Below are positions 43,051-58,307 of a DNA stretch of 64,000 nt, one piece after another; within the stretch, counting starts at the first letter, position 1; each line of letters opens with the position of its first letter. The position numbers and the translations under genes are program-made. This stretch comes from an uncultured Flavobacteriaceae bacterium (lineage in GTDB: Bacteria > Bacteroidota > Bacteroidia > Flavobacteriales > Flavobacteriaceae). The notes beneath the pieces were generated by a model. It saw only the letters and a list, made by a program, of their open reading frames with translations. It made no database searches and was not told the origin of the DNA. Location of the stretch: positions 1 to 64,000 of the forward strand of contig CANLCJ010000003.1 in assembly GCA_947489085.1 (NCBI GenBank), in the 5' to 3' direction.

Positions 43051-44364
43051 TTAATTTAAGGCACTCTTGTAGGTGTCTAAACACCTTTCGCGTGCAAATT
43101 TATGCTCTACAATTGGTTTTGGATAGGTTAATTCTTGGAAATCGGGTACCCATTGTTTAATGTAAGCCAAATCTTTATCAAATTTTTGTATTTGAGTGGT
43201 TGGGTTGAAAATTCTAAAATAGGGCGCAGCGTCTACACCACTGCCAGCAACCCATTGCCAATTGCCTATATTACTTGCCATTTCGTAATCGTGTAATTTT
43301 TCGGCAAAATAGGCTTCGCCCCAACGCCAATCTATAAGTAAGTGTTTGCATAAAAAACTACCAACTAACATTCTAATTCTATTGTGCATAAAACCTGTTT
43401 CGTTAAGTTGTCTCATGCCTGCATCTACAAGCGGATACCCTGTGTTGCCATTGCACCAAGCTTTAAAATCTGCTTCGTCATTACGCCAAGCAATGCCATC
43501 GTATTTTGCTTTAAAACTTTTGTGAGATGTATGTGGAAAGTGCCATAAAATTTGCATAAAGAATTCACGCCAGATAAGTTCTTGCCAAAAGATTTCATTG
43601 ACCTCAGCTATAGCTTTATTTACCATATTTCTAATACTAACCGTTCCAAAACGCAAATGTGGACCAAGTTTAGAAGTAGCATCTTTCGCTGGAAAATTAC
43701 GTGTGTCTTCGTAGTTTTTAATTAAAGAGGGCGTAACGGTATAAGGCTCAATTTTTTGTTTAGAAGGCGAAAAACCTATAGCTTCCAGTTCAAGGTTTGG
43801 TAAGTCTACACTCTTGTGTAATTTATCTAGGTGCTTTTTTGAGGTATAGCTGGCGCTGAAATTTTCATTTGTTTTAAATTTGGCTTTCCATGTTTTCATG
43901 TAAGGCGTATACACTACGTAAGGGTTGCCGTCTTTTTTAACAACTTCGTCTTTTTCGAAAATAACCTGATCTTTGTAGGTTAAAAATTCTATATCTTTTG
44001 TCTTTAAAAACGAAGCTATTTCATAATCCCTATCTTTAGCGTAAGGTTCGTAATCTCTGTTTGTGTATACCGCATTAATGCTGTATTTATCTAATAAAGT
44101 CTTGTAAACGTCTAAAGGTTTACAATGAAACATGGCGATGCCCGATTCATGGTTTTGCTCTAAATAGGAGCGCATTTCTTGTAATGTATTGTAAATAAAG
44201 TTTACTCTAGCGTCATCTTTAGGCAGTTTATCTAAAATTTCAGAATCGAAAATAAAAATTGGCAGTACAGGAATATCACTTTGTAAAGCTTCGTATAAGC
44301 CTACATTATCTTCCAACCTTAAATCTCTTCTAAACCAAAAAATGTTAACAGTTGTGTCAGTCAA
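43051..44364 (-). CDS. phrB: Deoxyribodipyrimidine photolyase, class I CPD type
   Basis: Repairs UV-made cyclobutane pyrimidine dimers with light energy. A 437-residue photolyase with an N-terminal antenna-binding alpha/beta domain (starts NIFWFRRDLRLEDN) and a C-terminal FAD domain. The FAD loop ASNIGNWQWVAGSG keeps the Asn facing flavin N5 and the electron-transfer Trp pair. WREFFMQILWHFP, DAGMRQLNETGFMHNR and PYFRIFNP are standard. It is the last gene of the 43.05-57.5 kb island, 18 bases after the SRPBCC gene. Confidence 0.92.
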   Translation of the reverse strand: MTDTTVNIFWFRRDLRLEDNVGLYEALQSDIPVLPIFIFDSEILDKLPKDDARVNFIYNTLQEMRSYLEQNHESGIAMFHCKPLDVYKTLLDKYSINAVYTNRDYEPYAKDRDYEIASFLKTKDIEFLTYKDQVIFEKDEVVKKDGNPYVVYTPYMKTWKAKFKTNENFSASYTSKKHLDKLHKSVDLPNLELEAIGFSPSKQKIEPYTVTPSLIKNYEDTRNFPAKDATSKLGPHLRFGTVSIRNMVNKAIAEVNEIFWQELIWREFFMQILWHFPHTSHKSFKAKYDGIAWRNDEADFKAWCNGNTGYPLVDAGMRQLNETGFMHNRIRMLVGSFLCKHLLIDWRWGEAYFAEKLHDYEMASNIGNWQWVAGSGVDAAPYFRIFNPTTQIQKFDKDLAYIKQWVPDFQELTYPKPIVEHKFARERCLDTYKSALN

Positions 44365-44382
44365 TTTAAATGTGTTTTAATG

Positions 44383-44844
44383 TTAGTATTTACCAAAAAT
44401 AGCTTCTAGTTTTTCTGTCCTGTAATTAAATATTTCTTCCAATTTTGGTTTTACTATAATGGGGTGTGCTAATTGGCCTAAAATGCCAAAAGGGACTTTG
44501 TAATCAATAATATCTTCCATTTCCACACCACCATCAATTTCTTTAATAAAATGCTTGTGGTGCCATAATGCGTAAGGGCCAAAACGTTGTTCGTCTACAA
44601 AATAGTGTTTGTCCACACGATGCGTAATTTCTGTAACCCATTTGGTTTTAATGCCTAAAACAGGTGTTACAATGTATTGTATAATTTGTCCAGCGTACAT
44701 AGGTCTGTCTGCGCCAGATAGTATTTCGAAGCCCATATAATCTGGTGTTATCGTTTTTAGATTTTTCGGATCCGAAAGGAAATCCCAAGCTTTATCTAAC
44801 GTTATGGGAAGCTTTTGCGTTTTATGTAATCTGTATATTTTCAT
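44383..44844 (-). CDS. SRPBCC-family (START-like) ligand-binding protein
   Basis: A 153-residue helix-grip protein (polyketide cyclase/SRPBCC type) with a hydrophobic pocket for lipids or other small molecules. The start (LHKTQKLPITLDKAWDFLSDPKNL) and the ending of the YndB/COG4276-like group are complete. Members of this group are often neighbours of photolyase genes in other bacteria, but their biochemical role is not known. It is 32 bases after tspO and 18 before the CPD photolyase gene, so clearly within the same transcription unit. Confidence 0.82.
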   Translation of the reverse strand: MKIYRLHKTQKLPITLDKAWDFLSDPKNLKTITPDYMGFEILSGADRPMYAGQIIQYIVTPVLGIKTKWVTEITHRVDKHYFVDEQRFGPYALWHHKHFIKEIDGGVEMEDIIDYKVPFGILGQLAHPIIVKPKLEEIFNYRTEKLEAIFGKY

Positions 44845-44876
44845 TATAGAAGGCTCTATGTATTAGCGTAAAGGAT

Positions 44877-45338
44877 TTAGTTGTATATTAAAATGTAGGC
44901 ATTTAAAGAACTGGCAATTAGTAGCCAAACCCAATAAGGCAGAATACATAATGTAGCGTAACCCATGGTTTTTTTATAGTTGAACATGAAAATGCTAACA
45001 ACAAAAGTTAGACTAAGTATGCATACCAAGCCCAAAGCTATTAGATGTTTATTGAAAAAAATGTAATTCCAAATTACATTTAAAAAAAATTGAATGCTAA
45101 AATGTACAATTACTCTTTTTTTATCGCCCAAGATAAAAAGCTTGGCCATGTAATAAGAAAAACAAAGCATTATGGTGGACCATGCCACACCGAACACCCA
45201 TCCTGGTGGCGTCCAAGGGGCTTTATTTAAGGTTGTATACCAGGAGCTTGTAGGACCATTGTCCATTAGATAGCTGCCAATAGCTAAAGCTCCAAAATTT
45301 ATAAGTAAGAATATAAAAAAATATTTAAGCAACCTCAT
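44877..45338 (-). CDS. tspO: TspO/MBR-family membrane protein
   Basis: A tryptophan-rich sensory protein of 153 residues with five predicted membrane helices. It has the family's TLNKAPWTPPGWVFGVAWS segment near 36-54 and the PYWVWLLIASSLNAYI ending. TspO proteins bind porphyrins. In Rhodobacter TspO affects light- and oxygen-dependent pigment gene expression, and others break down protoporphyrin IX in light. Its position among four photolyase-type proteins supports a light-stress role. Its start overlaps the end of the preceding small gene by 14 bases. Confidence 0.9.
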   Translation of the reverse strand: MRLLKYFFIFLLINFGALAIGSYLMDNGPTSSWYTTLNKAPWTPPGWVFGVAWSTIMLCFSYYMAKLFILGDKKRVIVHFSIQFFLNVIWNYIFFNKHLIALGLVCILSLTFVVSIFMFNYKKTMGYATLCILPYWVWLLIASSLNAYILIYN

Positions 45339-45501
45339 TGTTGTATTTACTCAGTTTTTCCGATATTTCTTGAGCTTCTGCATATTTAGCATCGCTGGCA
45401 GCTCTGTTTGTAGAAGATAAAGCATGCCATTCTTCCATAAGCTTTTTAAATTGATCTTCTAACTTTTCTTTTTCCGATTTTTTTTTGAAAAAACTAAACA
45501 T
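45325..45501 (-). CDS. Lacal_2735 family (DUF6435) small protein, 58 aa
   Basis: A highly charged 58-residue protein, MFSFFKKKSEKEKLEDQ onward, with the LMEEWHALSSTNRAASDAKYAEAQEI core of the Lacal_2735/DUF6435 family found in Flavobacteriia and marine bacteria. It is predicted to be a two-helix hairpin. The function is unknown. The ATG is 7 bases after the glutathione peroxidase stop and its TAA lies 14 bases inside tspO, so it is a coupled member of the island. Confidence 0.82.
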   Translation of the reverse strand: MFSFFKKKSEKEKLEDQFKKLMEEWHALSSTNRAASDAKYAEAQEISEKLSKYNNEVA

Positions 45502-45508
45502 AGCGTAT

Positions 45509-46045
45509 TTAATTTAAGTGTTTTGTTATTTTAGAACTTTCTGGTTTTGTAGCAGAATAAAAATAATCTACTAGGTTACCAGTTTCATCCACCAAGTATT
45601 TTTGAAAATTCCATTTTACAGATGAATCTTTTACACCGTTGTTGATTTTTTGAGTGAGCCATGTGTAAAGTGGATGTTGGTGTTTGCCTTTAACATCTGT
45701 TTTTTCTGTTATAAGAAAACTAACTCCGTAGTTCACTTCACAAAAAGATGTTATTGTATTAGCGTCTCCAGGCTCTTGCTTTCCAAATTGATTGCAGGGT
45801 ACGCCTATTATTTGCAATTTATCTTTATAAGTATCATAAAGTGATTGCAAGTCTTTATACTGTGGCGTAAACCCGCACTTGGAGGCGACATTAACAAACA
45901 GAATATGTTTTCCCTTAAATTGAGATAGGTCTATCGGAGTTCCATTAATAGCATTTATTTTAATATTGTAAATGCTATCTACCTTCATTTTTGTAGGTTT
46001 GGTTTTTGTAAATAAAGTTGCCATAAAAGCTTTTATAGGATTCAT
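45509..46045 (-). CDS. Glutathione peroxidase-family thiol peroxidase
   Basis: A 178-residue thioredoxin-fold peroxidase. The catalytic Cys is in NVASKCGFTPQY (Cys rather than selenocysteine), with the other tetrad residues Gln in CNQFGKQEPG, Trp and Asn in VKWNFQKYL. Bacterial Cys-type members mostly use thioredoxin. The N terminus has a short basic extension with no clear signal. It would remove lipid or hydrogen peroxides, fitting the photo-oxidative theme. It is 7 bases from the Lacal_2735 gene and 6 from the SDR gene. Confidence 0.88.
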   Translation of the reverse strand: MNPIKAFMATLFTKTKPTKMKVDSIYNIKINAINGTPIDLSQFKGKHILFVNVASKCGFTPQYKDLQSLYDTYKDKLQIIGVPCNQFGKQEPGDANTITSFCEVNYGVSFLITEKTDVKGKHQHPLYTWLTQKINNGVKDSSVKWNFQKYLVDETGNLVDYFYSATKPESSKITKHLN

Positions 46046-46051
46046 GTGTAA

Positions 46052-46735
46052 CTATATTTTAAAACTTACGATACCAGCGTCTAACTCAAAGATTTGACCA
46101 GATATACTAGATGCCTTATCAGACATCAAAAATTCGGCGGTATCGGCTACATCTTGAGGCGATAGGTATTTTTTAAGTGGATGGCGTTGTTTCATGTTTT
46201 CTTCCATCTTTTCGTTACGAAGTATTTTGGAAGCAAGTGTGGTATCTGTAACTGTTGGTGCAATGGCATTTACACGAATGGTTGGAGCTAGTTCTGCACC
46301 TAAAGATTTTGTTAAACCTTCTACACCAGATTTTGCTGTGGCAACACTGGCATGAAATGGCATGCCCAACTTGCAAGCTACTGTGCTAAAAAGTAAAATG
46401 GAAGGTGTTGTACCCTTCTTTAGTATATTAAGGTATTTTTGTATGGCTTTTACAGCACCGAGAACATTGATTTCAAAATCATTTTTAAAATCGTCTATGC
46501 TCAACCTCGATATGGGCTTTAAATTGATGCTTCCTGGGCAATAAATTAAGCCATCGGCTGCGTCTATATCTGGTAGTTCCTCTGCAGTAACATCACAACT
46601 GTAGTGTGTTAAATTATCGTGTGATACATCAGGAGTGCTTCTACTAATGTTAATAACATTTGTATGCACTAATAAGTTTTGTAAAATGGCTTTTCCAATG
46701 CCCTTACTTCCACCAACTACAATTATTGTTTTCAT
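46052..46735 (-). CDS. Short-chain dehydrogenase/reductase
   Basis: A classical SDR of 227 residues. The coenzyme loop is GGSKGIGKAI near 8-17, with CPGSINL in the place of NAG. The catalytic Ser is in LLFSTVA near 113-120. The usual YxxxK is not present: the segment reads HASVATAKSGVEGL, with His/Ala at the Tyr position and Lys kept. Activity may thus be altered or lost. It is in the middle of the island, 6 bases before the glutathione peroxidase gene and 22 after a small gene. Confidence 0.83.
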   Translation of the reverse strand: MKTIIVVGGSKGIGKAILQNLLVHTNVINISRSTPDVSHDNLTHYSCDVTAEELPDIDAADGLIYCPGSINLKPISRLSIDDFKNDFEINVLGAVKAIQKYLNILKKGTTPSILLFSTVACKLGMPFHASVATAKSGVEGLTKSLGAELAPTIRVNAIAPTVTDTTLASKILRNEKMEENMKQRHPLKKYLSPQDVADTAEFLMSDKASSISGQIFELDAGIVSFKI

Positions 46736-46757
46736 AGGTTTCAGGGCATGTTTAATA

Positions 46758-46973
46758 TTATGGCCTGCCCTTTAGCCGTTTTTCTATTTTTTGTTTAATA
46801 ACAGTCAAACGTTTCATCAAATCCATAATTTCTGGATCTTTCTGTTCTTTATAGACTGTGTTTAAACTTAATATTAAATTTTTAACTTCTCTAGACGATT
46901 CGATACGCTCACTAGTAGTCTTAAAAGTGTGCTTGCGCTGCTCGAATTCTAAAGCTTTATCAATAATCTCCAT
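46758..46973 (-). CDS. Small helical protein, tandem paralogue B (71 aa)
   Basis: A 71-residue, very charged all-helical protein, about half identical to its neighbour at 47135..47359: both share KALEFEQRK/KALEFEKRK, a SREVKNLIL/SREAKALIL segment, IMDLMKRLT/IMDIMKRLT and a KRLKG ending. I do not recognise a named family. Size and charge suggest a small adaptor or nucleic-acid-binding protein. It has its own 161-base upstream region containing a 15-base perfect inverted repeat. Confidence 0.65.
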   Translation of the reverse strand: MEIIDKALEFEQRKHTFKTTSERIESSREVKNLILSLNTVYKEQKDPEIMDLMKRLTVIKQKIEKRLKGRP

Positions 46974-47080
46974 AGTTCTCTTTAATCTTTATTCTAAATT
47001 TAATTGGAACAAATTAATATACCAATATTTTACAATTTGGCAATATAGTGAAATATGTGAGACTAACTATTTTAAATTAA

Positions 47081-47117
47081 GTTTATTAGACGAAATTCGA
47101 TGTTTCGTCTAATAAAC
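47081..47117. repeat. Perfect 15-base inverted repeat between paralogous small genes
   Basis: The arms GTTTATTAGACGAAA and TTTCGTCTAATAAAC enclose the loop TTCGATG. On the minus strand it starts 18 bases after the stop of the first small paralogue and 108 bases before the start of the second. No T-run follows on the transcript strand, so a classic terminator is doubtful. It may be a regulator site, an RNA processing/stability hairpin or a partial terminator. Confidence 0.7.
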
Positions 47118-47134
47118 ACGTTGTTAACCAGTAA

Positions 47135-47359
47135 TTATGCTGTTAAAGGCGCGCCCTTTAAGCGTTTTTCTACCTTGCGCTTTATTGCAGTAAGACGTTT
47201 CATGATGTCCATAATCTTTTCATCTTTTTTAATCTTATAAATTTGGTTTAAATCTAAGATTAAAGCCTTGGCTTCACGAGATATTTTCACCCTGTCGCTG
47301 GTAGATAAAGATCTCATTTTTCTTTTTTCAAATTCTAATGCTTTTTCTATTAAATCCAT
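47135..47359 (-). CDS. Small helical protein, tandem paralogue A (74 aa)
   Basis: A 74-residue charged helical protein, the paralogue of 46758..46973 (shared motifs KALEFEKRK, SREAKALIL, IMDIMKRLTAIKRK and KRLKG). The family and function are unknown to me. It starts four bases after the folE stop codon, so it is translated with GTP cyclohydrolase. The pair probably arose by local duplication, with divergence now strong enough to suggest that both copies are kept. Confidence 0.65.
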   Translation of the reverse strand: MDLIEKALEFEKRKMRSLSTSDRVKISREAKALILDLNQIYKIKKDEKIMDIMKRLTAIKRKVEKRLKGAPLTA

Positions 47360-47363
47360 AATG

Positions 47364-48059
47364 TTAGCTATTTAAATAATTCTGTAATTCAGTGATCTTT
47401 TCTGTAGTATTAAATTTTCCACCATAGTAAGCAGTTACGGTAGAGGAAGTGTCGTCTTTTATACCTCTAGATGAAACACAAAGGTGTTTAGCATCTATAA
47501 TAACTGCAACGTCTTCTGTATCTAAAACAGACTTTAATTCGTTTGCAATCTGGTTTGTTAAACGTTCTTGTACTTGTGGTCGTTTGGCATAGTATTGCAC
47601 AATTCTATTTAATTTAGAAAGTCCAATTACCTTACCAGAGGATATGTAAGCGACATGGGCTTTACCTATAATTGGTACAAAATGGTGCTCACAGTTTGAG
47701 TAGAACGTTATGTTTTTTTCAACCAACATTTGGTTGTATTGGTATTTATTGTCAAAGAGTGCTACTTTAGGCTTATTCTCAGGGTTTAGTCCAGAGAAAA
47801 TTTCGTCAATATACATCTTTGCCACTCTTTTAGGTGTTCCCTTCAAGGAATCGTCTGTTAAATCTAACCCCATAACATCCATAATTTCCTCAAATAAAAT
47901 AGCAATACGCTTTTTCTTTTCGTCATCCGAAATTTTAAATGCATCAGATTTCATAGGGGTATCCAAGCCTGTGTACATATGGTCGTCTCCTATATCTTCT
48001 AGAGTAAAACCGTTTAATTTATTACCGTTGACTTTTTGTTGTAATTTTTCTAATTGCAT
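47364..48059 (-). CDS. folE: GTP cyclohydrolase I
   Basis: Opens GTP to 7,8-dihydroneopterin triphosphate, the entry to folate and pterins. It has 231 residues. Zinc ligands are Cys in SNCEHHFVPI and in KHLCVSSRG, and the ERLTNQIA and GLSKLNRIV segments are typical. The long N-terminal arm (to ~55) is usual in Bacteroidota. Many photolyases use methenyl-tetrahydrofolate as light antenna, and folE is a recurrent member of light-induced gene sets in other bacteria. Its presence inside the island therefore makes sense, whether or not it is the cell's only copy. Confidence 0.93.
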   Translation of the reverse strand: MQLEKLQQKVNGNKLNGFTLEDIGDDHMYTGLDTPMKSDAFKISDDEKKKRIAILFEEIMDVMGLDLTDDSLKGTPKRVAKMYIDEIFSGLNPENKPKVALFDNKYQYNQMLVEKNITFYSNCEHHFVPIIGKAHVAYISSGKVIGLSKLNRIVQYYAKRPQVQERLTNQIANELKSVLDTEDVAVIIDAKHLCVSSRGIKDDTSSTVTAYYGGKFNTTEKITELQNYLNS

Positions 48060-48109
48060 ATTTTCTTTTTTATGTGCTGTCTTAACACTTTAATATTAAT
48101 CAAAGCACG

Positions 48110-48382
48110 TTAGCGTTTCGAGATTTTATTATGGGTTATTTGCCGTTGTCTGCTGCATTTAAACCTGCCTTTATCAAAAACTCTTAATTTTTCATGTTTT
48201 GTTTTTCTACCTTGAACGCGTTTTCGCCAAAGCCTAAAGCTGCTAGGTTTCATTTCTCTTCGCATTAAGTCTATAACTTCTTGCTCTTTTAGTCCAAACT
48301 GAAATTGAATAGCATCAAACGTTGTACGGTCCTCCCAAGCCATTTCAATAATTCTATCTACGTCGCGTACAGATAAACTCAT
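48110..48382 (-). CDS. TIGR03643 family protein
   Basis: A 90-residue basic protein of the TIGR03643 family, with the conserved RIIEMAWEDRTTFDAIQFQFG, RREMKPSSFRLWR and RVQGRKTKH segments. The fold looks like a helix-turn-helix, and the Lys/Arg-rich tail suggests nucleic-acid binding. The function is unknown. The family is repeatedly found near DUF2256 and photolyase/cryptochrome genes, as here. Its ATG overlaps the upstream gene's stop by four bases (ATGA). Confidence 0.88.
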   Translation of the reverse strand: MSLSVRDVDRIIEMAWEDRTTFDAIQFQFGLKEQEVIDLMRREMKPSSFRLWRKRVQGRKTKHEKLRVFDKGRFKCSRQRQITHNKISKR

Positions 48383-48828
48383 GTTTTATAGAAATTATAT
48401 TGTTCGTCGTATTTTATCTTTTTATCCCACAACTTGCTGAAAAAGGATTTGTTTTCCTTAAAAGTTTTGTTGTTTTTAAAGTGTATGTATTTGCCTTGAC
48501 CATGTATGCTCGTACCACTAGTTTTGTATATTACCAATTGGTAATAGGGTATGGCCCATGTAAAATTTTGTAACCCTTTATTTATATAAATAAGTATGCC
48601 ATCTGTTCTAAGCTCTATATTGGCATAGTTTAGATCTGAGGTTGTATTTAGATATGTATAGAGATTAGGGCTTACCTCTTCGATAATCATTCTTTTAGAT
48701 CCAACACCTTTCATTTTTATTGACTCTAAAAAAGAAAAGGGTTTGCCAACCAAGTCCGTAAGGATTTGCTTTTCTTCTTTGTTGTGATATGTTGAATTTA
48801 GTATCATTTCTACTGCTTTACATATCAA
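48379..48828 (-). CDS. Hypothetical protein, ~142-149 aa
   Basis: A soluble protein with alternating strands (LYTYLNTTSDLNYANIELR, GILIYINKG, YYQLVIYKT) and no family I recognise. The start may be ATG 48828 or, more in line with composition, ATG 48807 (MILNSTYHNKEE). It is coupled to TIGR03643 by an ATGA overlap. The 104-125 bases upstream are the longest clear promoter-like gap in this part of the island. They hold a TTGTTAAACA sequence also found before the TetR gene. Confidence 0.65.
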   Translation of the reverse strand: MICKAVEMILNSTYHNKEEKQILTDLVGKPFSFLESIKMKGVGSKRMIIEEVSPNLYTYLNTTSDLNYANIELRTDGILIYINKGLQNFTWAIPYYQLVIYKTSGTSIHGQGKYIHFKNNKTFKENKSFFSKLWDKKIKYDEQYNFYKT

Positions 48829-48858
48829 ATATACAAAACGTTTAATCTATATTGAAAT

Positions 48859-48868
48859 TTGTTAAACA
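48859..48868. promoter_or_regulatory. TTGTTAAACA box shared with the TetR promoter
   Basis: TTGTTAAACA here is the exact complement of TGTTTAACAA at 57552-57561, before the TetR gene. Both lie 30-60 bases upstream of a start codon in the same island. A 10-base match could be chance in AT-rich DNA, so this is only a candidate regulator site. Confidence 0.3.
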
Positions 48869-48931
48869 AAAAAATACATATTACTATTTAATAAATCTAT
48901 GGCGAGGTTTAATGATTTGTATGTTAATGTT

Positions 48932-50413
48932 TTAAGTGTTTTTTCGGAGCCTTTTTTGAGTGTGTTTTTTTAGAATTCGCTTACTTTCGTTAATAACAGT
49001 CTTATCTTTTCTTAATTCCCAGAGCGTATCTCCTGCTTTTTTACGCGAAGATTCTAATTCTACAATAGGGTGTGGATAGTCTTCTCCTAGTTTGAAGTTT
49101 GCAAATTGTTGCTCTAGCTCTGTCATTAAATAAGGCTGATGTGCGAATGGTGTGTCTAACTCTCTAAGTTCTGGTAACCATTTTTTAATAAAGCTGGCTT
49201 CTGGGTCGTGCTCTAGGCTATTTTTAATCGGATTATAGATGCGTAGCATATTGATACCTGTTTCTCCTGCTTGCATTTGCAGTTGTGGAAAGTGGATGCC
49301 GGGCTCAAAATCCAGAAACATCTGAGATAGATGGGTGGTTGCGGCTTGCCAGGGTTGCCAAAGGTTATGCGTAAAAAACGAAACTACTAGAGCGCGCATT
49401 CTAAAATTAAGATAACCAGTTTCGTTCAAACATCTCATACAGGCATCTACCAGAGGGTAACCTGTTTCTCCTTTTTGCCATTTTATTCTGTAATTTTCGG
49501 AGATGTTTTTCTTTAGTTTATGAAAACCTTTATTTATACTGGCTTCTTCCATTGTATGTTCCATCTCAAACTTTTGTATAAAGTGTGTCTGCCAGCGTAA
49601 CCTAGACATAAAGGCTTCTAATGCTTTTTTATGTTTAGAAGTTTCTTTAAGATGGTAGGCTTGGTGGTATACTTCTCTAACCGAAAGGTTTCCCCAGGCA
49701 ATGTAAGGCGATATTCTGCTACAGCTTGTTCTTGCTAAGTTTGGTTTGGAGATGTTAAACATGTAGTTAGGGTAACGTTTTGCAAAAAAGGAGTCTAAAT
49801 ATTTAAGCCCTATTGTTCTGCCTCCTTTTTGAAAATTTTTGGAAAGAGGGGTTTCTAAGCTAGGTAAAGAAAAATACGTTTCTAAATCTTTAATAGCTGT
49901 AATGGACAGTAGCTGGTTTGTTTTTGGACGAAAAGGGAGGGGTTCTACAGCATAAAACGCTTCTACTAAATCAATCCAATTTTCATGATCTTTTAAGCCT
50001 CGCTGTACACCATTATTTGTATTTTCATGCCAAACAATGAGATTGTTTTTGCAAAAGCGCTTAAATGTTTTATCTCTGTTATATGTTACCAAAACGCCTG
50101 TTTCTTGGTGCGAATAGATATGTTTTACATGGTAAGAATTGAGCAATTGGTTTATGGTGGGGATGATATCTGCTTTAACGGCAAGTATTTTAGAATTGTA
50201 TGCTGCTAATTGTGTGTTAAGGTCTGCTATAGATTGTTTTATAAAATTCCAGTGCCTTTCGCTGTAATGCACGTCGTTAAGTAAGAGGGGTTCGAAGCAA
50301 TAGAGTATGACTACGGGCGTGGCAGATTGCAGGGCATTATAAATTGCCTCGTTGTCTTGTAAACGCAGGTCTCGCTTAAGCCATACTACTCGTAATTCTG
50401 GTTTAGTACTCAT
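48932..50413 (-). CDS. Cryptochrome/photolyase-family flavoprotein, unassigned subgroup
   Basis: A 493-residue photolyase-fold protein. The N-terminal antenna domain begins VVWLKRDLRLQDNEAIY. The FAD domain has SRISPYIAWGNLSVREVYH, GYPLVDACMRCLNETG and MLRIYNPIKNS. In the FAD loop, where photolyases have ASN-x-GNWQW, it reads PGIHFPQLQM: the flavin-N5-facing Asn seems replaced by His (near 374) and the Trp pair is lost. Repair and electron transfer may therefore differ from classic photolyases, and a signalling cryptochrome is possible. A basic tail (KRILKKHTQKRLRKN) follows. It overlaps the next upstream gene by 11 bases. Confidence 0.82.
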   Translation of the reverse strand: MSTKPELRVVWLKRDLRLQDNEAIYNALQSATPVVILYCFEPLLLNDVHYSERHWNFIKQSIADLNTQLAAYNSKILAVKADIIPTINQLLNSYHVKHIYSHQETGVLVTYNRDKTFKRFCKNNLIVWHENTNNGVQRGLKDHENWIDLVEAFYAVEPLPFRPKTNQLLSITAIKDLETYFSLPSLETPLSKNFQKGGRTIGLKYLDSFFAKRYPNYMFNISKPNLARTSCSRISPYIAWGNLSVREVYHQAYHLKETSKHKKALEAFMSRLRWQTHFIQKFEMEHTMEEASINKGFHKLKKNISENYRIKWQKGETGYPLVDACMRCLNETGYLNFRMRALVVSFFTHNLWQPWQAATTHLSQMFLDFEPGIHFPQLQMQAGETGINMLRIYNPIKNSLEHDPEASFIKKWLPELRELDTPFAHQPYLMTELEQQFANFKLGEDYPHPIVELESSRKKAGDTLWELRKDKTVINESKRILKKHTQKRLRKNT

Positions 50414-51935
50414 CTTGATTTGCTATAATGTGCTGTGCTTTTTTCTTTATATTTTGTAAATCTTTGGCATCCATTTTATCTAAGAGGCTGTACATCATGC
50501 CCATTCTATAATTATTGCCTAGTTCGCTTCGCTTTTCATCTAAAAAATTCCAATACAAACTATTAAAAGGGCAGGCATCGTCCTCTATTTTCTTTCGTTT
50601 GTTGTAGGTGCAAGCCTCGCAATAATTACTCATTTTATGTATATAAGATCCAGAAGACACATAGGGTTTAGTGGCAATTTTTCCACCATCTGCAAACTGG
50701 CTCATTCCTCTGGTATTGGTAAGCTGTACCCATTCTACAGCATCTACATATATGCCCAAATACCAACTGTCTACCTCATCTGGATGTGTTTGAGTTAGTA
50801 ATGCGTAGTTGCCCGTTATCATTAAGCGCTGTATGTGGTGTGCATAGCCATTGTCTAAAGAATTGGTTATGGCATGTTTTAAACAGTTCATCTTGGTTTT
50901 TCCTGTCCAAAAGAAATTGGCCAAAGTGTTGGTGTTACCTAAAGCATTTAACTTTTTGTAGTCTGGCATAAATGCCCAATACATGCCTCTCATGTATTCT
51001 CGCCATCCAATTACTTGTCTTACAAAACCCTCTACTTGAGAGATGTTGATATTTTCGCCGTGTTTTCTGTAATAGTTTAAAATTGTATTTACAACGTCTT
51101 TTGGGCTTATAAGTTTTAAATTCATTGCAAAAGATAACCTTGAATGAAAGAGGTAATCTTCGTTAGTATGCATGGCATCTTGGTAGTCTCCAAAATGTAC
51201 TAATAAATGTTCGCAAAAATATTTTAATTGCTCTAAGGTTTGCGCTCTTGTAATGGGGTAAGTAAATGTTTTGGTTTCGAACCTTCCAATAGTTTCTACT
51301 TCTACATTTTTTAGATCTTCTACAATTTCAACAACATTATTTTTAAAGTGCTTGTAGCTTGGTATCTCTGCTTGACCTTTCCATTTGTTACGGTTGCTTT
51401 TATCGTAATTCCATTTACCGCCTTCTGGTTGATCTCCAACCATTAGAATATCGTGCTTTTTACGCATGTCTCGGTAAAAGTTTTCCATAAGATATTGTTT
51501 TTTACCTTCGAAAAAAATGCCCAAGTCCTCTCGTTTTGTGTAGAAGTGTTCTGTGGAAAATGCTTTAGAAGCGATGCCTAAGGTATCGCAAAAGGCACTT
51601 AATGCCTTGTCAAGTCTATATTCGTCGGGCAACAAATACTCAAAACGCTCTATATTATGTGTTTTAATAATAGAGGACAGATTATTGGTAAGCGACTGTG
51701 TATTGTGTTCTGCATTTATCTTAAAGTAGATAACATTATGTTGCTTCGTATTTAAGGTATTGCAAAACTCTCGCATGGCAGCAAAAAAGCCTATTACTTT
51801 TTGGATGTGGTGTTTTACATAATCTGTTTCCTGTCGCATTTCGAACATGCAGTAAGTAACATCTTTGTTTATTGTATCGAACCAAGAGTGTTTAATGTTG
51901 AGTTGATCTCCAAGAATTAGTCTTAACGTTTTCAT
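50403..51935 (-). CDS. Iron-sulfur (6-4) photolyase / FeS-BCP cryptochrome
   Basis: A 510-residue member of the bacterial FeS-BCP group (PhrB of Agrobacterium, CryB of Rhodobacter), which repairs (6-4) photoproducts or signals. It starts with the group's LRLILGDQLN. The four [4Fe-4S] cysteines appear to be conserved near 350, 438, 441 and 454 (MNCLKHA, YCEACTYN, DDACPF), the same spacing as in Agrobacterium PhrB. Characterised members use 6,7-dimethyl-8-ribityllumazine as antenna. The EGFVRQVIGWREYMRG and NYALLTQTHPDEVD segments are typical. Its stop overlaps the start of the next gene, implying coupled translation. Confidence 0.92.
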   Translation of the reverse strand: MKTLRLILGDQLNIKHSWFDTINKDVTYCMFEMRQETDYVKHHIQKVIGFFAAMREFCNTLNTKQHNVIYFKINAEHNTQSLTNNLSSIIKTHNIERFEYLLPDEYRLDKALSAFCDTLGIASKAFSTEHFYTKREDLGIFFEGKKQYLMENFYRDMRKKHDILMVGDQPEGGKWNYDKSNRNKWKGQAEIPSYKHFKNNVVEIVEDLKNVEVETIGRFETKTFTYPITRAQTLEQLKYFCEHLLVHFGDYQDAMHTNEDYLFHSRLSFAMNLKLISPKDVVNTILNYYRKHGENINISQVEGFVRQVIGWREYMRGMYWAFMPDYKKLNALGNTNTLANFFWTGKTKMNCLKHAITNSLDNGYAHHIQRLMITGNYALLTQTHPDEVDSWYLGIYVDAVEWVQLTNTRGMSQFADGGKIATKPYVSSGSYIHKMSNYCEACTYNKRKKIEDDACPFNSLYWNFLDEKRSELGNNYRMGMMYSLLDKMDAKDLQNIKKKAQHIIANQDEY

Positions 51936-51997
51936 AAATGGATTCGTAAGTGTGCGTTAATTGATGTAAGATTTTATGTGTTTGGTGTGTTATACCT

Positions 51998-53305
51998 TTA
52001 AAACAAACTGGGTTGTAACCATAAATTTTGAAACTTGCCATTGGGATCGTAACGTTCTGCTTGAAGTTTTACGTTAAATTTCCGATCTCTAGGATCGTTG
52101 CCAACTCCAGATACGTACATCCAGTTGCCGTAATTGCTATGCACATCGTAATCTATTAACAACGCTTCGAAATAAGCTGCACCAATACGCCAGTCTAAAC
52201 ACAAATCTTTAGCAAAATAAGAAGCAACGTTTTGCCGTCCTCTATTGCTCATCCATCCAGTTTTTTTTAGTTCTATCATGTTTGCATTAACAAAATCGGA
52301 ATTTGTTTCTCCATTAATCCATTTCTCTATTTGAGATGTGGTATTATCCCACTGGTACGACTTGTTTAAAATACCTCCAATTTTAAAGATGTTATTGCCA
52401 TGTTTTAGAGCTATATATTTAAAATAATCGCGCCATATAAGTTCGAAAATTAACCAATATGTGGATTGGTTTTTAAAGTGCTCTTCCTCAAAAGCTTTGA
52501 GCTTCCAGTAAATGGTTTTTGCAGAGATAGAGCCGTTGGCCAACCAAGCAGAGAACTTAGAGCTAAAGTCTTTACCTATAAGGCCATTACGTGTTTTTTT
52601 ATATACGCCAATTTTTTTAGTTTTAAAGAAGTAATCGTCTAGGCGTTCTAGAGCTTTAGTTTCTCCTCCTTTAAAGGGGAAAGCGCTATTGGCTGGCGTC
52701 TTAAAATCTTTATAACCTAAATCTTGGAGCGATGGTATTTTGGTAGTATTGGTGAGTTGTTGTTTACTTTTAGTGTTACAGGAAATTAAAGGGCACACTT
52801 TTACTTCTTTTTCAACATGTTTTCTAAAATTTGTAAATACTTGCGGGATTTTGGCCAGAGGCAACTTTATATCGTCTGGATGGTATAAAAATTGAGCGTA
52901 GGTAGTTTTAAAGTGTACCGTTTTGGCAGTGTGTTGTTTTACACTGTTAGATACATTATTTTCTTCTTCTGTCCACTCTTTCTGCAGATATACTGTATTA
53001 ACATTATAATCGATACAGAGCTTGGGGATTACAATTTCTGGTTTTTCCTGAAAAACAAAAAGCGGTATGTTGAGAGCATCGAGATTTTGTTTTAAGTCTG
53101 TAATGCTTTCTATTAAAAATTTGGCGCGGTATTGTGCCGTTTTTTTAAACCCATAACTGGTAGTTTTAAAATGTCTGGGATCGAAACAATACACGGCAAT
53201 TGTATTTTCGTGCTGGCATAAAGCCGTGCTTAAACTAGTGTTGTCGCTTACTCTTAAATCGTTTCTAAACCATACTAAGCTTGTGTCGTTTTCTGTCTTC
53301 TGCAT
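51998..53305 (-). CDS. DASH-family cryptochrome
   Basis: A 435-residue Cry-DASH flavoprotein. In the N-terminal domain the start [14 protein letters not shown] and YCFDPRHFK are characteristic. The FAD domain has [31 protein letters not shown] and [22 protein letters not shown], in which the N5-facing Asn is kept. DASH proteins repair dimers in single-stranded DNA and bind folate antennas. The stop lies 62 bases before the FeS-type gene. The N terminus overlaps the DUF2256 gene by 31 bases, so expression is linked. Confidence 0.93.
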
Positions 53306-53421
53306 TTTTCACTACAATATTTAACGTTATCCCAATTTTTTTCCCACTTTTTGCGCCATGCAAACGGCCGTTTACATATTGGACATATTTTCTGCGGTAA
53401 GTGTTGTTTTTTGTGCGTCAA
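53275..53421 (-). CDS. DUF2256 small zinc-ribbon-like protein, 48 aa
   Basis: A 48-residue protein of the DUF2256 family. It has CPIC and CSEKC pairs ([28 protein letters not shown]), giving four cysteines expected to bind one zinc, and aromatic/basic residues in between. The function is unknown, but it is regularly a neighbour of cryptochrome/photolyase genes. It starts with TTG at 53419-53421, since no ATG is available. It overlaps the end of the SDR-DUF2867 gene by 50 bases and the start of the DASH gene by 31. Confidence 0.87.
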
Positions 53422-54841
53422 CTTTAACCAATTTATTTATCATTCCTGTAAAAATAAAACCGTGAAAGGGGAGTACTGCATACCAGTACAATCTGCCCCA
53501 AAGCCCTCTAGGTCTAAATGTTGCAGTTTGTTTAAGGGTTTTATTTTCTATTTTAAATTCTAACCAAGCTTCTCCAGGTAATCGCATTTCTGCGTAGAGT
53601 AAAAGCTTTTGTTGTTTTTTATCTGCAAATATTACACGCCAGAAATCTAAAGCATCTCCCGCATCTAGATCGGTTGGGCTTGTTCTTCCTCTTCTAAGGC
53701 CTATGCCTCCAAAAAGCTTGTCTATATAGCCTCTTATACGCCAAAGAATAGTGCCGTAATACCATCCGTTTTTGCCGCCAATACTCCATATTTTATTGAG
53801 CGTAAGATCTACATTGCTAACAGGGCGTTCTTTATAATCTTTAAAGCAACCAAATTTTGGTACGTTTATGTATTTGTACAGATTGTCGCGTAGCCTACCG
53901 CTGCTTACCATAGAATCTTTCCAGCTGGAAATAATACCGTTTTGTTCTGTTTTTTCGAAAGCCAGTTCTACGGCTTCTTTGTAAGTTAGTGGATGTATTT
54001 CGAGTATTTTATTAATAGCACTAGGTTTGCCTATTATTTGAACGCCCATACTGTCTACCAAAGCTGTTGCGAGTTTGTAAGATGTAGAAGTTACAAAATA
54101 GAGCCAATAGGAGGACAATTTCGGCGTCATTAAAGGTACTGTTAGTATGTAGCGCTTTAGCCCCCTAACCTTAGAAAATTGCAAAAGCATTTCTTTATAA
54201 GTTAAAATTTCGGGGCCAAAAACATCAAAACTTTTATTATAAAGTTCTCTTTTGCCTACTGCTTTGTGCAAAAAGCCTAATACATCTCTTACTGCTATGG
54301 GTTGTGTTTTTGTATTTAACCATTTAGGCGCGATCATAAAAGGAAGTTTTTCAACCAAATCTCTTATAATTTCAAATGAAGAACTGCCCGAACCTACTAT
54401 AATACCAGCTTTAAATATGGTTAGGTTGTAATGTGGCGATGCTAATATTTGCTCTACGTTTTTTCTAGAGCGCAGGTGTTTTGAGAGTTTATCTTCGTTG
54501 GTTATACCACTTAGATAGATAACTTGTTCAACTTGAGTTTTTTCTAAGTAATTTTTGAAGTTTATTGCGCAGGTTTCTTCTAAACTTTCGAAATCTTTAG
54601 AAGAGTTGGACATGGAATGTATAAGGTAATAGGCCACGTCTATTTTCTTCGGAATATTTTCTAGCGTAGCACTTTTTAAAAAGTCTGCTTCGACAACGAT
54701 AACATTTTTTTCTTCAGCATAGCTTTTATCTGCCCTAAGCTTATCTCTAACTACGCATATTACAGTATGGCCTTCGTTTATTAAAAAGGGGATAAGGCGT
54801 ATACCTATGTATCCAGTTGCACCTGTTACAAGAATATTCAT
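53372..54841 (-). CDS. NAD(P)-binding SDR with C-terminal DUF2867 domain
   Basis: A 489-residue two-domain protein. The N-terminal atypical-SDR Rossmann domain starts [16 protein letters not shown] and has YYLIHSM and YLSGIT segments (to ~300). The C-terminal DUF2867 domain (~330-480) includes [17 protein letters not shown] and DFWRVIFAD. YbjT-like SDR-DUF2867 proteins recur in light-induced gene sets of other bacteria, but no reaction has been shown. It lies 63 bases after the flavin reductase gene and overlaps DUF2256. Confidence 0.87.
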
Positions 54842-54904
54842 TATAATTTGTTTTAGTTAAACGAACTATTACACTCTAAATACTCCTAAACAAGATGCTT
54901 AGAA

Positions 54905-55540
54905 CTATTTAATTTTTGTTGCTAATGGTTTTGGTCTTTGGTAGCCAAAACGTGTTTGATTTGTAGAAACTGCATAACCATCCAACCCATTTATGGCGGC
55001 TACTTCTGCTTTGGCTAAATTTAAAAAGCCATCGTCTTCTATAAGTTGCTCTTTTACATACAAGCCCACAACTTTACCAATTACTAGTATAGTGTTGTTT
55101 ACTTTTATAGGGTATTCCTCCACAAACTCCATGGCTAATTGTACTGGAGCGTCTTTAACAAAAGGCGCTTTAAACTCTGGTTTGTATTCTGAATTTAGAT
55201 TTGTAGCATCGAATTCTGAAATAGAGGTATCGTATTTAGCAGATGTGTGGTGTGCATCTTCTAGTATCGCTTTATGGATGTGATTTATGGTATATACACC
55301 AGTGGCTTTTATATTTTCGTAAGTATTACGAATTACGGTTGTTGGACGTAGAAAAAAACCAAGTACTGCTGGGCTGGACCCAATATGCGTTATAGAACTA
55401 AATACGGCTACGTTTTCCTGACCTGTTTCTGATATGGACCCAATTAGGTTTGCAGATTTATAGCCAGAACAGCTATTCATAAGGTTTATTTTATATATGT
55501 GTTCTAAATTATGGATATCTTCTGCACTAAAATATGTCAT
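54905..55540 (-). CDS. Flavin reductase family protein
   Basis: A 211-residue FMN-binding split-barrel protein of the flavin-reductase-like domain family. The N-terminal half has the flavin segment GSISETGQENVAVFSSITHIGSSPAVLGFFLRP, with Asn/Ser residues that bind FMN phosphate. It may supply reduced flavin or act as an FMN-dependent reductase. Given the neighbours, supply of reduced flavin to flavoproteins is an attractive but unproven idea. It starts just two bases after the ABC1 kinase stop. Confidence 0.83.
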   Translation of the reverse strand: MTYFSAEDIHNLEHIYKINLMNSCSGYKSANLIGSISETGQENVAVFSSITHIGSSPAVLGFFLRPTTVIRNTYENIKATGVYTINHIHKAILEDAHHTSAKYDTSISEFDATNLNSEYKPEFKAPFVKDAPVQLAMEFVEEYPIKVNNTILVIGKVVGLYVKEQLIEDDGFLNLAKAEVAAINGLDGYAVSTNQTRFGYQRPKPLATKIK

Positions 55541-55542
55541 GT

Positions 55543-56856
55543 CTAGGATAGCTTTAGGTAGTTGTTAATTTTTATATCCTGCGCTTTTAAATCGAACATC
55601 AAATTGTATAATCCAAAAAACGTTCTGTTAATGTATATAAAGTGTTTCGAACCTCGATTACCGTTCATTTTTTTAAGATCTGTGCTTTTAGAGTAGCGCT
55701 CTCCTAATTCTGCAATTTTTCCAAAAAAATCGGCATCAGAAAAATCGAAAGTATCGTTATTAAAGGGCTGCGTAAACAGACTTAACATTTCGTGAAACAT
55801 TTCTGTGAAAAATTCCAATTCTTGTTTGCTATCTTCAGCTTTAAGAATTTCCAGTTGGTAGAGTTTATCTGTAAAATAGGCTCTATTTGCAATGTTTTCT
55901 TTTTTAGCGAGTTCAAAATAAGGATTGTAGAATTCTAACGGAATGGTTTTCATACAGCCAAAATCTAATGCGATAAGTTCTGCATTTTCAGAAACTAAGA
56001 AGTTTCCGGGATGCGGATCGGCATGCACTTTTTTAAGGTTGTGAATTTGGTACATGTAAAAGTCCCAAAGTGCTTGCCCTAATTGATTGGCTGTATCCTG
56101 ATTTGTATTTACAGCAGTAAATTCCGAAAGGTGTTTACCTTCCATATAATCCATAGTTATAATACGCTCTGAGGATAATGTTTCGTAATATTTAGGGAAT
56201 TTGAGGTTCGCTATGTGGCTGCAGGCTTCAGATATTTCCTTACTTTGTTCTACTTCTAAAATGTAATTTGTTTCTTCAACAAGTTTGTGTTCTACCTCCT
56301 TAAAGTATTTATCTGAATCTTTGCCTTTTATATTGAACATGCTCATAGCTATTGGTTTTACCATAGCCAGATCTGTAGCAATACTTTCTGCAACACCGGG
56401 ATATTGAATTTTCACAGCAAGTTTTTTCCCATCTTTTTCGGCTATATGCACTTGGCCAATACTGGCGGCATTTACAGAGGTGGTGTTGAAAGCATCGAAC
56501 AAATCGTTAGGATGTTTTCCAAAATATTTTTTAAATGTTTTAACTACTAAAGGAGGCGATAATGGCGGTACAGAAAACTGTGCCAGAGAAAATTTCTCTA
56601 CATAGGCTTGTGGAAGGATACTTTTTTCCATACTTAGCATTTGTGCTACCTTAAGTGCACTGCCTTTAAGTTGCTTTAAGCCATCATAAATATCTGTAGC
56701 ATTATTTTTATTGAGGCGTTCTTTGGCTTCTTCTTCTGTTTTTGTAAGCTTGTCGCCATAATATTTCAAGTAATTAACGCCCACTTTAGCTCCTGTTGAA
56801 ACTAATTTACTGGCACGTTGTATTTTCGATGTAGGTATACTGTCTATAGTTTTCAT
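55543..56856 (-). CDS. ABC1/AarF (UbiB/ADCK-like) atypical kinase
   Basis: A 437-residue member of the ABC1 atypical kinase family. The N-terminal KxGQ motif reads KVAQ (LKVAQMLSM) and the Ala-rich loop reads NAASIGQVH. The ATP Lys is in LAVKIQYPG. The catalytic and metal motifs HADPHPGN and LDFGCM are intact. Family members such as UbiB/COQ8 support quinone synthesis through ATPase activity. Flavobacteria use menaquinone, so the client here is unknown. It is 6 bases after the TetR gene and 2 before the flavin reductase gene, in a tight three-gene block. Confidence 0.88.
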   Translation of the reverse strand: MKTIDSIPTSKIQRASKLVSTGAKVGVNYLKYYGDKLTKTEEEAKERLNKNNATDIYDGLKQLKGSALKVAQMLSMEKSILPQAYVEKFSLAQFSVPPLSPPLVVKTFKKYFGKHPNDLFDAFNTTSVNAASIGQVHIAEKDGKKLAVKIQYPGVAESIATDLAMVKPIAMSMFNIKGKDSDKYFKEVEHKLVEETNYILEVEQSKEISEACSHIANLKFPKYYETLSSERIITMDYMEGKHLSEFTAVNTNQDTANQLGQALWDFYMYQIHNLKKVHADPHPGNFLVSENAELIALDFGCMKTIPLEFYNPYFELAKKENIANRAYFTDKLYQLEILKAEDSKQELEFFTEMFHEMLSLFTQPFNNDTFDFSDADFFGKIAELGERYSKSTDLKKMNGNRGSKHFIYINRTFFGLYNLMFDLKAQDIKINNYLKLS

Positions 56857-56862
56857 AGGCTA

Positions 56863-57519
56863 TTAATTATTTTGGAATCTTTCTTTAAATAAAAACTTAC
56901 CTAAATCTAACACACTTTTAAGTGGAGCAACATCTAAAACATCAAAAGTTGTATTTACAGATTTCTCAATAAATATGTCTGTTTTTTCGAAGGCCGCAGA
57001 GGTGTCATCCAACCAAAATTTCATTGTTAACAACAATTGTAACCAGGCTGATTCTTTTAGCGCTTTTTCTTGAATTTTTTCAAATTGTTCCTGCTTAATG
57101 TCTAACATTTGTATCCCTATATCTGTAATATATTTAGTAAAATGTTGCTTTAAACCAGATAGAATTTTTAAGCCCTTTAAATCTTTTTTATATTTATCTA
57201 AAACATGTTTAACGTAACTTCTATTTGCCGTTAAGTTTTCAAAAAAGGTGTAGTAGAAGCTTAATAATTTGTTTCGAGCATCAAAAATTTGATAGTCTTC
57301 ACTTTTATGTAAGGCTTCTATTGAGTTGGAGAAAAATGCCTCGAAAATGCCTTTTTCAATAGCCTCGAAAGATGCAAAAAAATCGTAAAATTTGGCTTCT
57401 TCAAAATTATTCATTTTAGCAAAAGCAAACACCGATTTAGGGTTTTGGTCATGTTCTAGGACATAATCCATGTAGTATGTAATTATATCGTTTCTTGAAA
57501 CTGATTTCTTCTTTGCCAT
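56863..57519 (-). CDS. TetR-family transcriptional regulator
   Basis: A 218-residue TetR-like protein with an N-terminal helix-turn-helix region (residues ~8-55) diverged from the consensus (VFAFAKMNNFEEAKFYDFFAS) and a helical ligand-binding C-terminal domain. The reading frame extends upstream to 57561, but MAKKKSVSRND at 57519 is the natural start. It is the first gene of a 14.5-kb same-strand series with the ABC1 kinase 6 bases downstream, and probably regulates itself and at least the first genes. A TGTTTAACAA box is 33 bases upstream. Confidence 0.8.
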   Translation of the reverse strand: MAKKKSVSRNDIITYYMDYVLEHDQNPKSVFAFAKMNNFEEAKFYDFFASFEAIEKGIFEAFFSNSIEALHKSEDYQIFDARNKLLSFYYTFFENLTANRSYVKHVLDKYKKDLKGLKILSGLKQHFTKYITDIGIQMLDIKQEQFEKIQEKALKESAWLQLLLTMKFWLDDTSAAFEKTDIFIEKSVNTTFDVLDVAPLKSVLDLGKFLFKERFQNN

Positions 57520-57551
57520 AATATGTTTATATTTATGGTAAAGATAATAAA

Positions 57552-57561
57552 TGTTTAACAA
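57552..57561. promoter_or_regulatory. TGTTTAACAA box before the TetR gene
   Basis: Sits 33-42 bases upstream of the TetR start. The same 10-mer occurs reversed at 48859-48868, and a shorter TTTAACAA lies before the aquaporin gene (near 58397). It is a candidate autoregulatory site, weakly supported. Confidence 0.3.
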
Positions 57562-57650
57562 TTATTATAAAAAGCTAAACAAAATAATTCTAAAGGTAAT
57601 GTTAAATACATTTTAGAATAAAAATTGTAGAAATACAGTGTTTTTTTAAA

Positions 57651-58307
57651 CTAGCAACACTTATCGTCCTTAACGAGTTTGCAACTAGATACAGCGGTTA
57701 TAGTACCCAAGATGGGCGCTATAATATACAACCAGAGGTCTTTAAAATTTCCTGTAAATAGGGCAGGAGCAATAGAGCGTATGGGATTCATAGAGGCTTT
57801 CGTCATTGGGCCAGCAAACATAGCTTCTAACAGTATAACGCCACCAACGGCAATGGCTGCCATTGTACCAATTTCTTTACTTCCTGTAGATACGTTTATA
57901 ATAACTACCATTAAAAAGAACGTGAGCAAAAACTCAAGAATTGCTGCTTTATAAGGCGGAAAATTAGCGGCTGGTGTGGTTTCTCCCAAAAAATCACTCT
58001 CGGGAAACAAAAACCATAATACAAAAAGTGCAAAAATACCTCCAATGCTTTGTGCTAATATATATGAGGGTACCTTTTGCCAAGGAAATTTTTTGGCAAA
58101 TGCAAAGCCTATAGTTACTGCTGGGTTAAAGTGTGCTCCAGAAATTTCTCCAAAAGCATAAATCATGGCCATTACAATGAGTCCCCAAGTTATGGCAACA
58201 CCAACGTGAGAAATACTGCCTCCAGTAATTTCGTTAATCGTCATAGCACCGCAACCGCAAAATAATAAAGCGAAAGTACCAATAGCTTCTGAGATGTGCT
58301 GTTTCAT
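57651..58307 (-). CDS. MIP-family aquaporin, second NPA motif altered to NPI
   Basis: A 218-residue membrane channel with six helices and two pore half-helices. The first pore motif is HFNPAVTIG near 61-69. The second reads SMNPIRSIAP near 172-181, Ile replacing Ala, with the selectivity-filter Arg kept. Size and sequence suit the AqpZ-like group, conducting water or small neutral solutes such as glycerol or ammonia. The C terminus ends in DDKCC. It lies 131 bases upstream of the TetR gene on the same strand and is probably a separate transcript. Confidence 0.83.
   Translation of the reverse strand: MKQHISEAIGTFALLFCGCGAMTINEITGGSISHVGVAITWGLIVMAMIYAFGEISGAHFNPAVTIGFAFAKKFPWQKVPSYILAQSIGGIFALFVLWFLFPESDFLGETTPAANFPPYKAAILEFLLTFFLMVVIINVSTGSKEIGTMAAIAVGGVILLEAMFAGPMTKASMNPIRSIAPALFTGNFKDLWLYIIAPILGTITAVSSCKLVKDDKCC

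Follow-up and report, generated by a model that had tools for sequence, protein, structure and literature searches.

The question raised by this locus is what controls an island of 19 consecutive minus-strand genes, several of them encoding photolyases and cryptochromes, at positions 43051-57519 of contig CANLCJ010000003.1 from an uncultured Flavobacteriaceae bacterium (assembly GCA_947489085.1); positions given without a contig name refer to the window, the whole stretch of 64,000 nucleotides that was analysed. The original prediction, having found a TetR-family gene at the head of the island and no MerR gene, had proposed that the light or redox input differs from that of bacteria in which B12-binding MerR regulators control such genes. 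A MerR-B12 gene does exist in this genome, on another contig, and that proposal is not supported. The evidence instead makes it probable that the island is a photoprotection regulon under in-trans control of the genome's single CarH/LitR-type MerR-B12 regulator, here called LitR. A two-box operator is shared by the carotenoid locus of LitR and by the island, the operator is conserved, its occurrence in the family depends on LitR, and one operator base changes together with one residue of the LitR recognition helix.

The same box pair, GTTTAAC-N14-GTTAAAC, is found in the litR-crtI gap and at both predicted island promoters. In the island, the pair lies before the TetR gene (P1) and before u149, a gene for a conserved protein of 142 residues (P2), in each case upstream of a predicted -7 box identified with the promoter consensus TAnnTTTG:

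57553..57580, minus strand: P1 predicted operator GTTTAGC-N14-GTTAAAC, before the TetR gene
57539..57546, minus strand: P1 predicted -7 box TATCTTTA, 6 bases past the right box
48840..48867, minus strand: P2 predicted operator GTTTAAC-N14-ATTAAAC, before u149
48826..48833, minus strand: P2 predicted -7 box TATATTTG

The distance from box to box is 21 bp, or two helical turns. At the carotenoid (crt) promoter, the right box and the -7 box overlap, and at P1 and P2 the pair sits upstream of the -7 box; in sites of the P1/P2 type, 6 bases separate box and -7 box in 59 of 65 cases, and 3 of 64 have a TTG at the spacing usual for a -33 element. When the pattern GTTTARC-N14-RTTAAAC was sought throughout the 3.65 Mb of the genome, four places were recovered, namely the litR-crtI gap, P1, P2, and a site on contig C33 (C33:19827-19854, equivalent to L146:3828-3855) between a minus-strand CIA30-family gene and a gene encoding a TonB-dependent receptor. 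On the minus strand, this fourth site reads ...TTATTTGTTAAACA, which looks like the crt promoter, and it may drive the CIA30 gene.

Conservation of the operator was examined in related loci. With at most one mismatch, 30 of 33 orthologous loci have it before TetR and 27 have it before u149, the shuffle rates being 0 and 0.15 percent, respectively. In a named set, comprising the best 80 of 395 loci that match the 142-residue protein and overlapping partly with the 79-locus sample described below, it precedes TetR in 73/73 and u149 in 78/80 loci (3/1530 in shuffles). Of 30 close LitR loci, 29 carry it in the interval separating litR from the gene that follows. Across relatives, the boxes are nearly invariant and the spacer is more variable. 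In a number of loci lacking TetR, the box pair precedes photolyase units that start with another gene. Among 19 chosen other operator regions in relatives, 11 contain fasciclin-like, four GLPGLI-like, one CrtW-like, and one Lacal_2735 proteins, the names having been assigned by eye except in L135, L138, and L148, where profile matches were used. The fasciclin-like proteins beside the operator appear to be secreted (L132, L135, L137, L139, L140, L142, L143, L147, L149, L150, and L151), and that of L135 matches PF02469.

The distribution of the operator follows that of LitR. A search of 249 Flavobacteriaceae genomes for LitR returned matches in 220 and none in 29, and the genomes were accordingly divided into those with a close LitR (E <1e-60; 200 genomes), those with a distant LitR (E >1e-50; 20 genomes), and those without one (29 genomes). 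The strict pattern TTGTTTAAY-N14-RTTAAACA, counted anywhere in the genome, occurs in 185 of the 249 (its reversed control in 13), and the genomes concerned comprise 183/200 with a close LitR, 2/20 with a distant LitR, and 0/29 without LitR, Fisher tests on these counts giving 3.6e-25 and 6.6e-15.

A further link is provided by a matched change in protein and DNA. In the 20 distant LitRs, one position of the recognition helix is Lys in 16 and Ile in 4, and the change from Ile to Lys goes with a change of the box from GTTTAA to GTCTAA. When the third base was left open in the sites flanking litR, it was T at 33 of the 34 Ile loci (A at the remaining one) and C at all 13 Lys sites, counts that allow up to two mismatches, the shuffle control of 0/800 applying to no more than one; two of the flank sites, L126 (the source of the A) and L183, are of poor quality. 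The variant GTCTAA operator is found in 7/20 genomes with a distant LitR, 0/13 without LitR, and 0/9 with a close LitR. The change also reaches the TetR promoters: among six Lys-type genomes, C/G boxes are present in G035, G225, and G226, and a C in the left box only in G197. Asymmetric TetR promoters of intermediate appearance, with T in the left and G in the right box, were observed in L032 and L053.

As for the regulator itself, the genome contains three MerR_1 matches, only one of which (LitR, protein P0001) also has a B12-binding domain. On contig C1, its gene is followed by those for phytoene desaturase, phytoene synthase, a hydroxylase, and lycopene cyclase; the profile match of the hydroxylase is FA_hydroxylase only, and its designation as CrtZ rests on position. 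The N-terminal MerR helix-turn-helix (HTH) domain of LitR matches PF13411 with 50.1 bits (threshold 21.6) and the B12-binding helical bundle matches PF02607 with 34.3 bits (threshold 23). For a C-terminal Rossmann B12 domain, there is no match to PF02310 at E 1e-5, yet ExHxxG aligns with that of CarH, and the alignment of LitR with Thermus CarH reaches E 1.1e-13. The motifs Wx9EH and E/DxHxxG, presumably the cobalamin motifs of CarH/LitR proteins, are kept as Wx9EH and ExHxxG in this LitR and in 30/30 close LitRs. A cob(I)alamin adenosyltransferase gene was found in the genome, so that a supply of adenosylcobalamin is plausible; a further B12-binding gene, a frame of 914 codons, probably encodes methionine synthase. 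No LitR was detected in the open reading frames of the 79 sampled loci. In genome G181 (L168:42-1881) litR lies immediately upstream of TetR-ABC1 with the operator in between. A lone GTTTAAC box a short distance upstream of litR (L036 near 10191, minus strand), seen in this and many related genomes, makes autoregulation of LitR through a single upstream box possible. Past the crt operon, the opposite strand (C1:84022-87106, in L036) encodes, as judged by eye, an HTH regulator, two small membrane proteins, a DUF393-like protein, and a TIGR01777-like epimerase.

Several observations weigh against control of the island by LitR. The four places in this genome were found with the looser pattern GTTTARC-N14-RTTAAAC, whose reversed control matches two; the four operator places alone are therefore weak evidence, and it is location and conservation that carry the case. 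P1, with its odd base (GTTTAGC), and P2, with a G after the right box, are each one base off the strict pattern. The strict operator is missing from 17 of the 200 genomes with a close LitR, and genomes without LitR may also have lost its targets. Three of 16 Lys-type litR flanks have no site, and no operator site was found in the Lys-type genomes G013 and G037, both of which keep the TetR module. Moreover, the LitR tree is compatible with a single Ile/Lys switch, so that the 46 sites are not independent and the match between helix and base represents one event visible at two kinds of promoter. With regard to the protein, Gln occupies in 30/30 close LitRs the place of CarH His132, which we take to be the light-state ligand, and the NCBIfam CarH equivalog NF052513 gives LitR 64.9 bits, below the cut-off of 400, for which reason the protein is named CarH/LitR-type rather than CarH.

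Taking both sides together, control by LitR remains the preferred explanation, and we infer direct binding and, by analogy with CarH, dark repression with light as the releasing signal. LitR would bind GTTWAAC box pairs 21 bp apart at P1, P2, and the litR-crtI gap, and would thus also control its own carotenoid operon. In the dark, adenosylcobalamin-bound LitR would keep these promoters shut; light would break the cobalamin, LitR would release the DNA, allowing joint production of carotenoids, photolyases, FolE, peroxidase, and the remaining products. The island probably has a light theme. Judged by their families, the targets suit light stress: carotenoids act against singlet oxygen, photolyases repair UV lesions, FolE serves pterin or folate synthesis (photolyase antenna), TspO relates to porphyrins, and peroxidase removes hydroperoxides. 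For the flavobacterium Dokdonia, a connection of TSPO with light-regulated expression is also reported (PMC8243069). A variant of this scheme, in which LitR has two geometries in one cell, acting as a repressor at crt and an activator at the island, and in which the Ile/Lys-T/C switch is included, is conceivable but rather unlikely. Since the island pair lies upstream of promoters with no recognizable -33 element, activation by LitR is possible there, and under this variant LitR itself, or its light-made form with Gln in place of the bis-His ligand, may be needed to start transcription of the island.

Other regulators could account for the same motif. If the TetR protein were the main switch for a different light or redox signal, the conserved motif would be its own operator, a possibility suggested by TetR being the first gene in 33 sampled units with the operator directly before it. 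However, the operator is also found in the litR-crt gap and before photolyase units that have no TetR. Among 20 listed of 70 TetR-negative genomes, it is present in all eight with a close LitR (G010, G016, G017, G019, G040, G046, G058, and G063), in none of two with a distant LitR, and in none of ten without LitR; conversely, genome G052, which has no LitR, keeps only TetR-ABC1, and no operator site was found at its TetR gene. The change of the box base, moreover, tracks the helix of LitR. TetR as main switch is thus very improbable and nothing marks it as such, and it may instead provide an added second input. Somewhat less improbable, though still unlikely, is that the GTTWAAC boxes are read by another factor, such as an extracytoplasmic function (ECF) sigma factor or a regulator that escaped notice, with which LitR merely co-occurs. 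The fixed spacing between box and -7 box and the rarity of a -33 TTG could mark a special promoter class of this kind, but such a factor would need to be missing from those same 29 genomes and to have changed specificity in the same lineage as LitR, and paired boxes 21 bp apart fit a bound regulator, being alike in form to the Pseudomonas LitR operator TGTACA-N12-TGTACA given in the accessible part of PMC9758184. The least probable explanation, and a most improbable one, is mere functional clustering of genes with several independent promoters and no shared light control. It agrees with the modular composition of the island, in which the photolyase block may be present or absent, but not with the gene order kept in 33/33 and 69/73 units nor with the recurrence of a single operator at two fixed positions.

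All 19 minus-strand genes are present as first described, including the five overlapping junctions and the longest gap of 161 bases (46974-47134). The overlaps comprise 14 bases between TspO and Lacal_2735, 4 between TIGR03643 and u149, 11 between cryX and the Fe-S photolyase gene, 31 between DUF2256 and DASH, and 50 between SDR-DUF2867 and DUF2256. Pfam and NCBIfam recovered the gene families named earlier, four photolyase/cryptochrome types among them; the SRPBCC call is the weak one (Polyketide_cyc 22.4 bits, cut-off 23.4), and searches of both databases with sp1, sp2, and u149 gave no match. In order of transcription, the genes are as follows:

56863..57519, minus strand: TetR-family regulator (TetR_C_23), first gene; Pfam/NCBIfam match
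55543..56856, minus strand: ABC1/UbiB-like atypical kinase; Pfam/NCBIfam match
54905..55540, minus strand: flavin reductase-like protein; Pfam/NCBIfam match
53372..54841, minus strand: SDR with DUF2867; Pfam/NCBIfam match
53275..53421, minus strand: DUF2256 zinc-ribbon-like small protein (PF10013); Pfam/NCBIfam match
51998..53305, minus strand: DASH cryptochrome; TIGR02765
50403..51935, minus strand: Fe-S (6-4)-type photolyase (FeS-BCP); PF04244
48932..50413, minus strand: cryX, cryptochrome-like, without repair residues; PF03441, PF00875
48379..48807, minus strand: u149, conserved protein, probably 142 residues, predicted PH-like fold
48110..48382, minus strand: TIGR03643/DUF2805 protein; Pfam/NCBIfam match
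47364..48059, minus strand: folE, GTP cyclohydrolase I; Pfam/NCBIfam match
47135..47359, minus strand: small paralogue sp1
46758..46973, minus strand: small paralogue sp2
46052..46735, minus strand: short-chain dehydrogenase; Pfam/NCBIfam match
45509..46045, minus strand: glutathione peroxidase; Pfam/NCBIfam match
45325..45501, minus strand: Lacal_2735 family protein; Pfam/NCBIfam match
44877..45338, minus strand: TspO/MBR protein; Pfam/NCBIfam match
44383..44844, minus strand: SRPBCC-like protein; weak match
43051..44364, minus strand: class I cyclobutane pyrimidine dimer (CPD)-type photolyase (phr), last gene; PF03441, PF00875

The island had been described as a single TetR-headed unit. TetR is indeed the first gene, but because the operator at the head is repeated before u149, the 19 genes are probably not transcribed as one unit from a single promoter. 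The same-strand run itself extends upstream of TetR into an aquaporin gene (57651-58307, minus strand) and beyond, the predicted operator marking a new transcription start between aquaporin and TetR. The start codon given earlier for u149, TTG at 48828, falls within the predicted -7 box, and translation probably begins at ATG 48807, giving a protein of 142 residues. The aquaporin gene adjoins the island in a number of relatives as well as in the window. At the opposite end, a plus-strand gene for a protein resembling FAD-dependent amine oxidases (41643-42881) converges on the island, its HpnE/CrtI-like matches being weak, and the gap between sp1 and sp2 contains a perfect 15-bp hairpin (47081-47117, minus strand) that does not occur as such in relatives.

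PF04244 is present in 133 of the 249 family genomes, and 79 loci with this domain were sampled, 73 of a high-scoring kind and 6 of another kind. A TetR-headed unit occurs in 33 of the 79. The genes are not scattered in all relatives, as 33/33 of these units are colinear with the window, and TetR together with u149 was found in 73 of the 80 named loci, 69 of the 73 being colinear. The full set of 19 genes is retained in 8/33 units; TetR, ABC1, the Fe-S photolyase, u149, SDR, and phr are each present in 33/33, and cryX, sp1, and sp2 in 23, 22, and 20, respectively. Twenty further TetR-centred loci show that the photolyase block may be lacking where much of the rest is kept, and the island is thus modular. 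TetR-ABC1 constitutes a separable head module that may provide feedback or a second input.

The genome is 98.61 percent complete in 135 contigs, and all three of its PF03441 matches lie inside the island, while its one PF04244 match is the Fe-S photolyase. The DASH cryptochrome (51998-53305) scores 500.9 bits against TIGR02765, above the cut-off of 317.05, and cryX, with 159.4 bits, falls below it. At the active-site positions of phr, cryX has Arg for Glu, Phe for Asn, and Ala for Met, and in place of the Trp pair of the window's phr it has Leu/Ile/Phe and Met, in its own sequence and in 28/28 relatives in both cases. With the repair residues replaced at every position compared (Glu/Asn/Met and the Trp pair), CPD repair by cryX in the known way is unlikely, and the protein may have a light-sensing, partner, or flavin function. 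The Fe-S photolyase (50403-51935) contains the DPRP domain (PF04244, 250.9 bits) and has 7ykn as its nearest PDB chain (E 2.3e-156, aligned over residues 3-500); Cys residues close to its C-terminus were seen by eye only. The predicted structure of u149 is a PH-like barrel with a C-terminal helix (mean pLDDT 91), with modest matches.

For a large marine family that lives in sunlight, these results name a concrete operator of a B12-type light regulator, join carotenoids and photolyases into one predicted regulon, and make the light response of a large marine bacterial group testable. The pairing of one helix residue with one operator base lends itself directly to testing how MerR-B12 regulators recognize DNA. 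Two parts of the island deserve study in their own right, namely cryX without repair residues and the conserved PH-like u149 with its own predicted light-type promoter.

Compared with known systems, LitR resembles CarH/LitR of Thermus thermophilus and Myxococcus xanthus in its MerR HTH and B12 helical bundle, in Wx9EH and ExHxxG, and in a gene that heads carotenoid genes. It differs from them in the Gln at the position of CarH His132, in the lack of a C-terminal B12 domain match at E 1e-5, in its operator, and in a predicted regulon that adds a remote 19-gene photolyase island. The original prediction had likened the island to light-induced gene sets of the LitR/CarH family, a likeness borne out by Pseudomonas, whose light-induced set, according to the available text, includes phrB, cryB, folE, a short-chain dehydrogenase, and an FAD-dependent oxidoreductase (PMC9758184). 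The class II LitRs of Pseudomonas (PplR/PmlR) thus have overlapping targets and likewise an operator of two palindromic boxes, TGTACA-N12-TGTACA as opposed to GTTWAAC-N14-GTTWAAC here; they keep one of two B12 domains, implying function without B12, and PmlR2 acts via a LOV partner, as the same portion of that source reports (PMC9758184). In Chryseobacterium lacus, which the study concerned places in Flavobacteriaceae, crt genes are light-induced; its authors describe finding no genes of a car or lit operon and propose a new regulator (PMC7064467). In the open-access literature searched, no paper naming such an operator was found. A proximity cluster of neighbouring photolyase-related genes has been described in marine Flavobacteriia, enriched in proteorhodopsin-bearing strains; the available portion of that description contains no regulator or operator, and the present analysis supplies gene order and predicted control (PMC5932025). 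The island appears to extend a known kind of light regulon to another bacterial group, with a new operator and a natural change of specificity.

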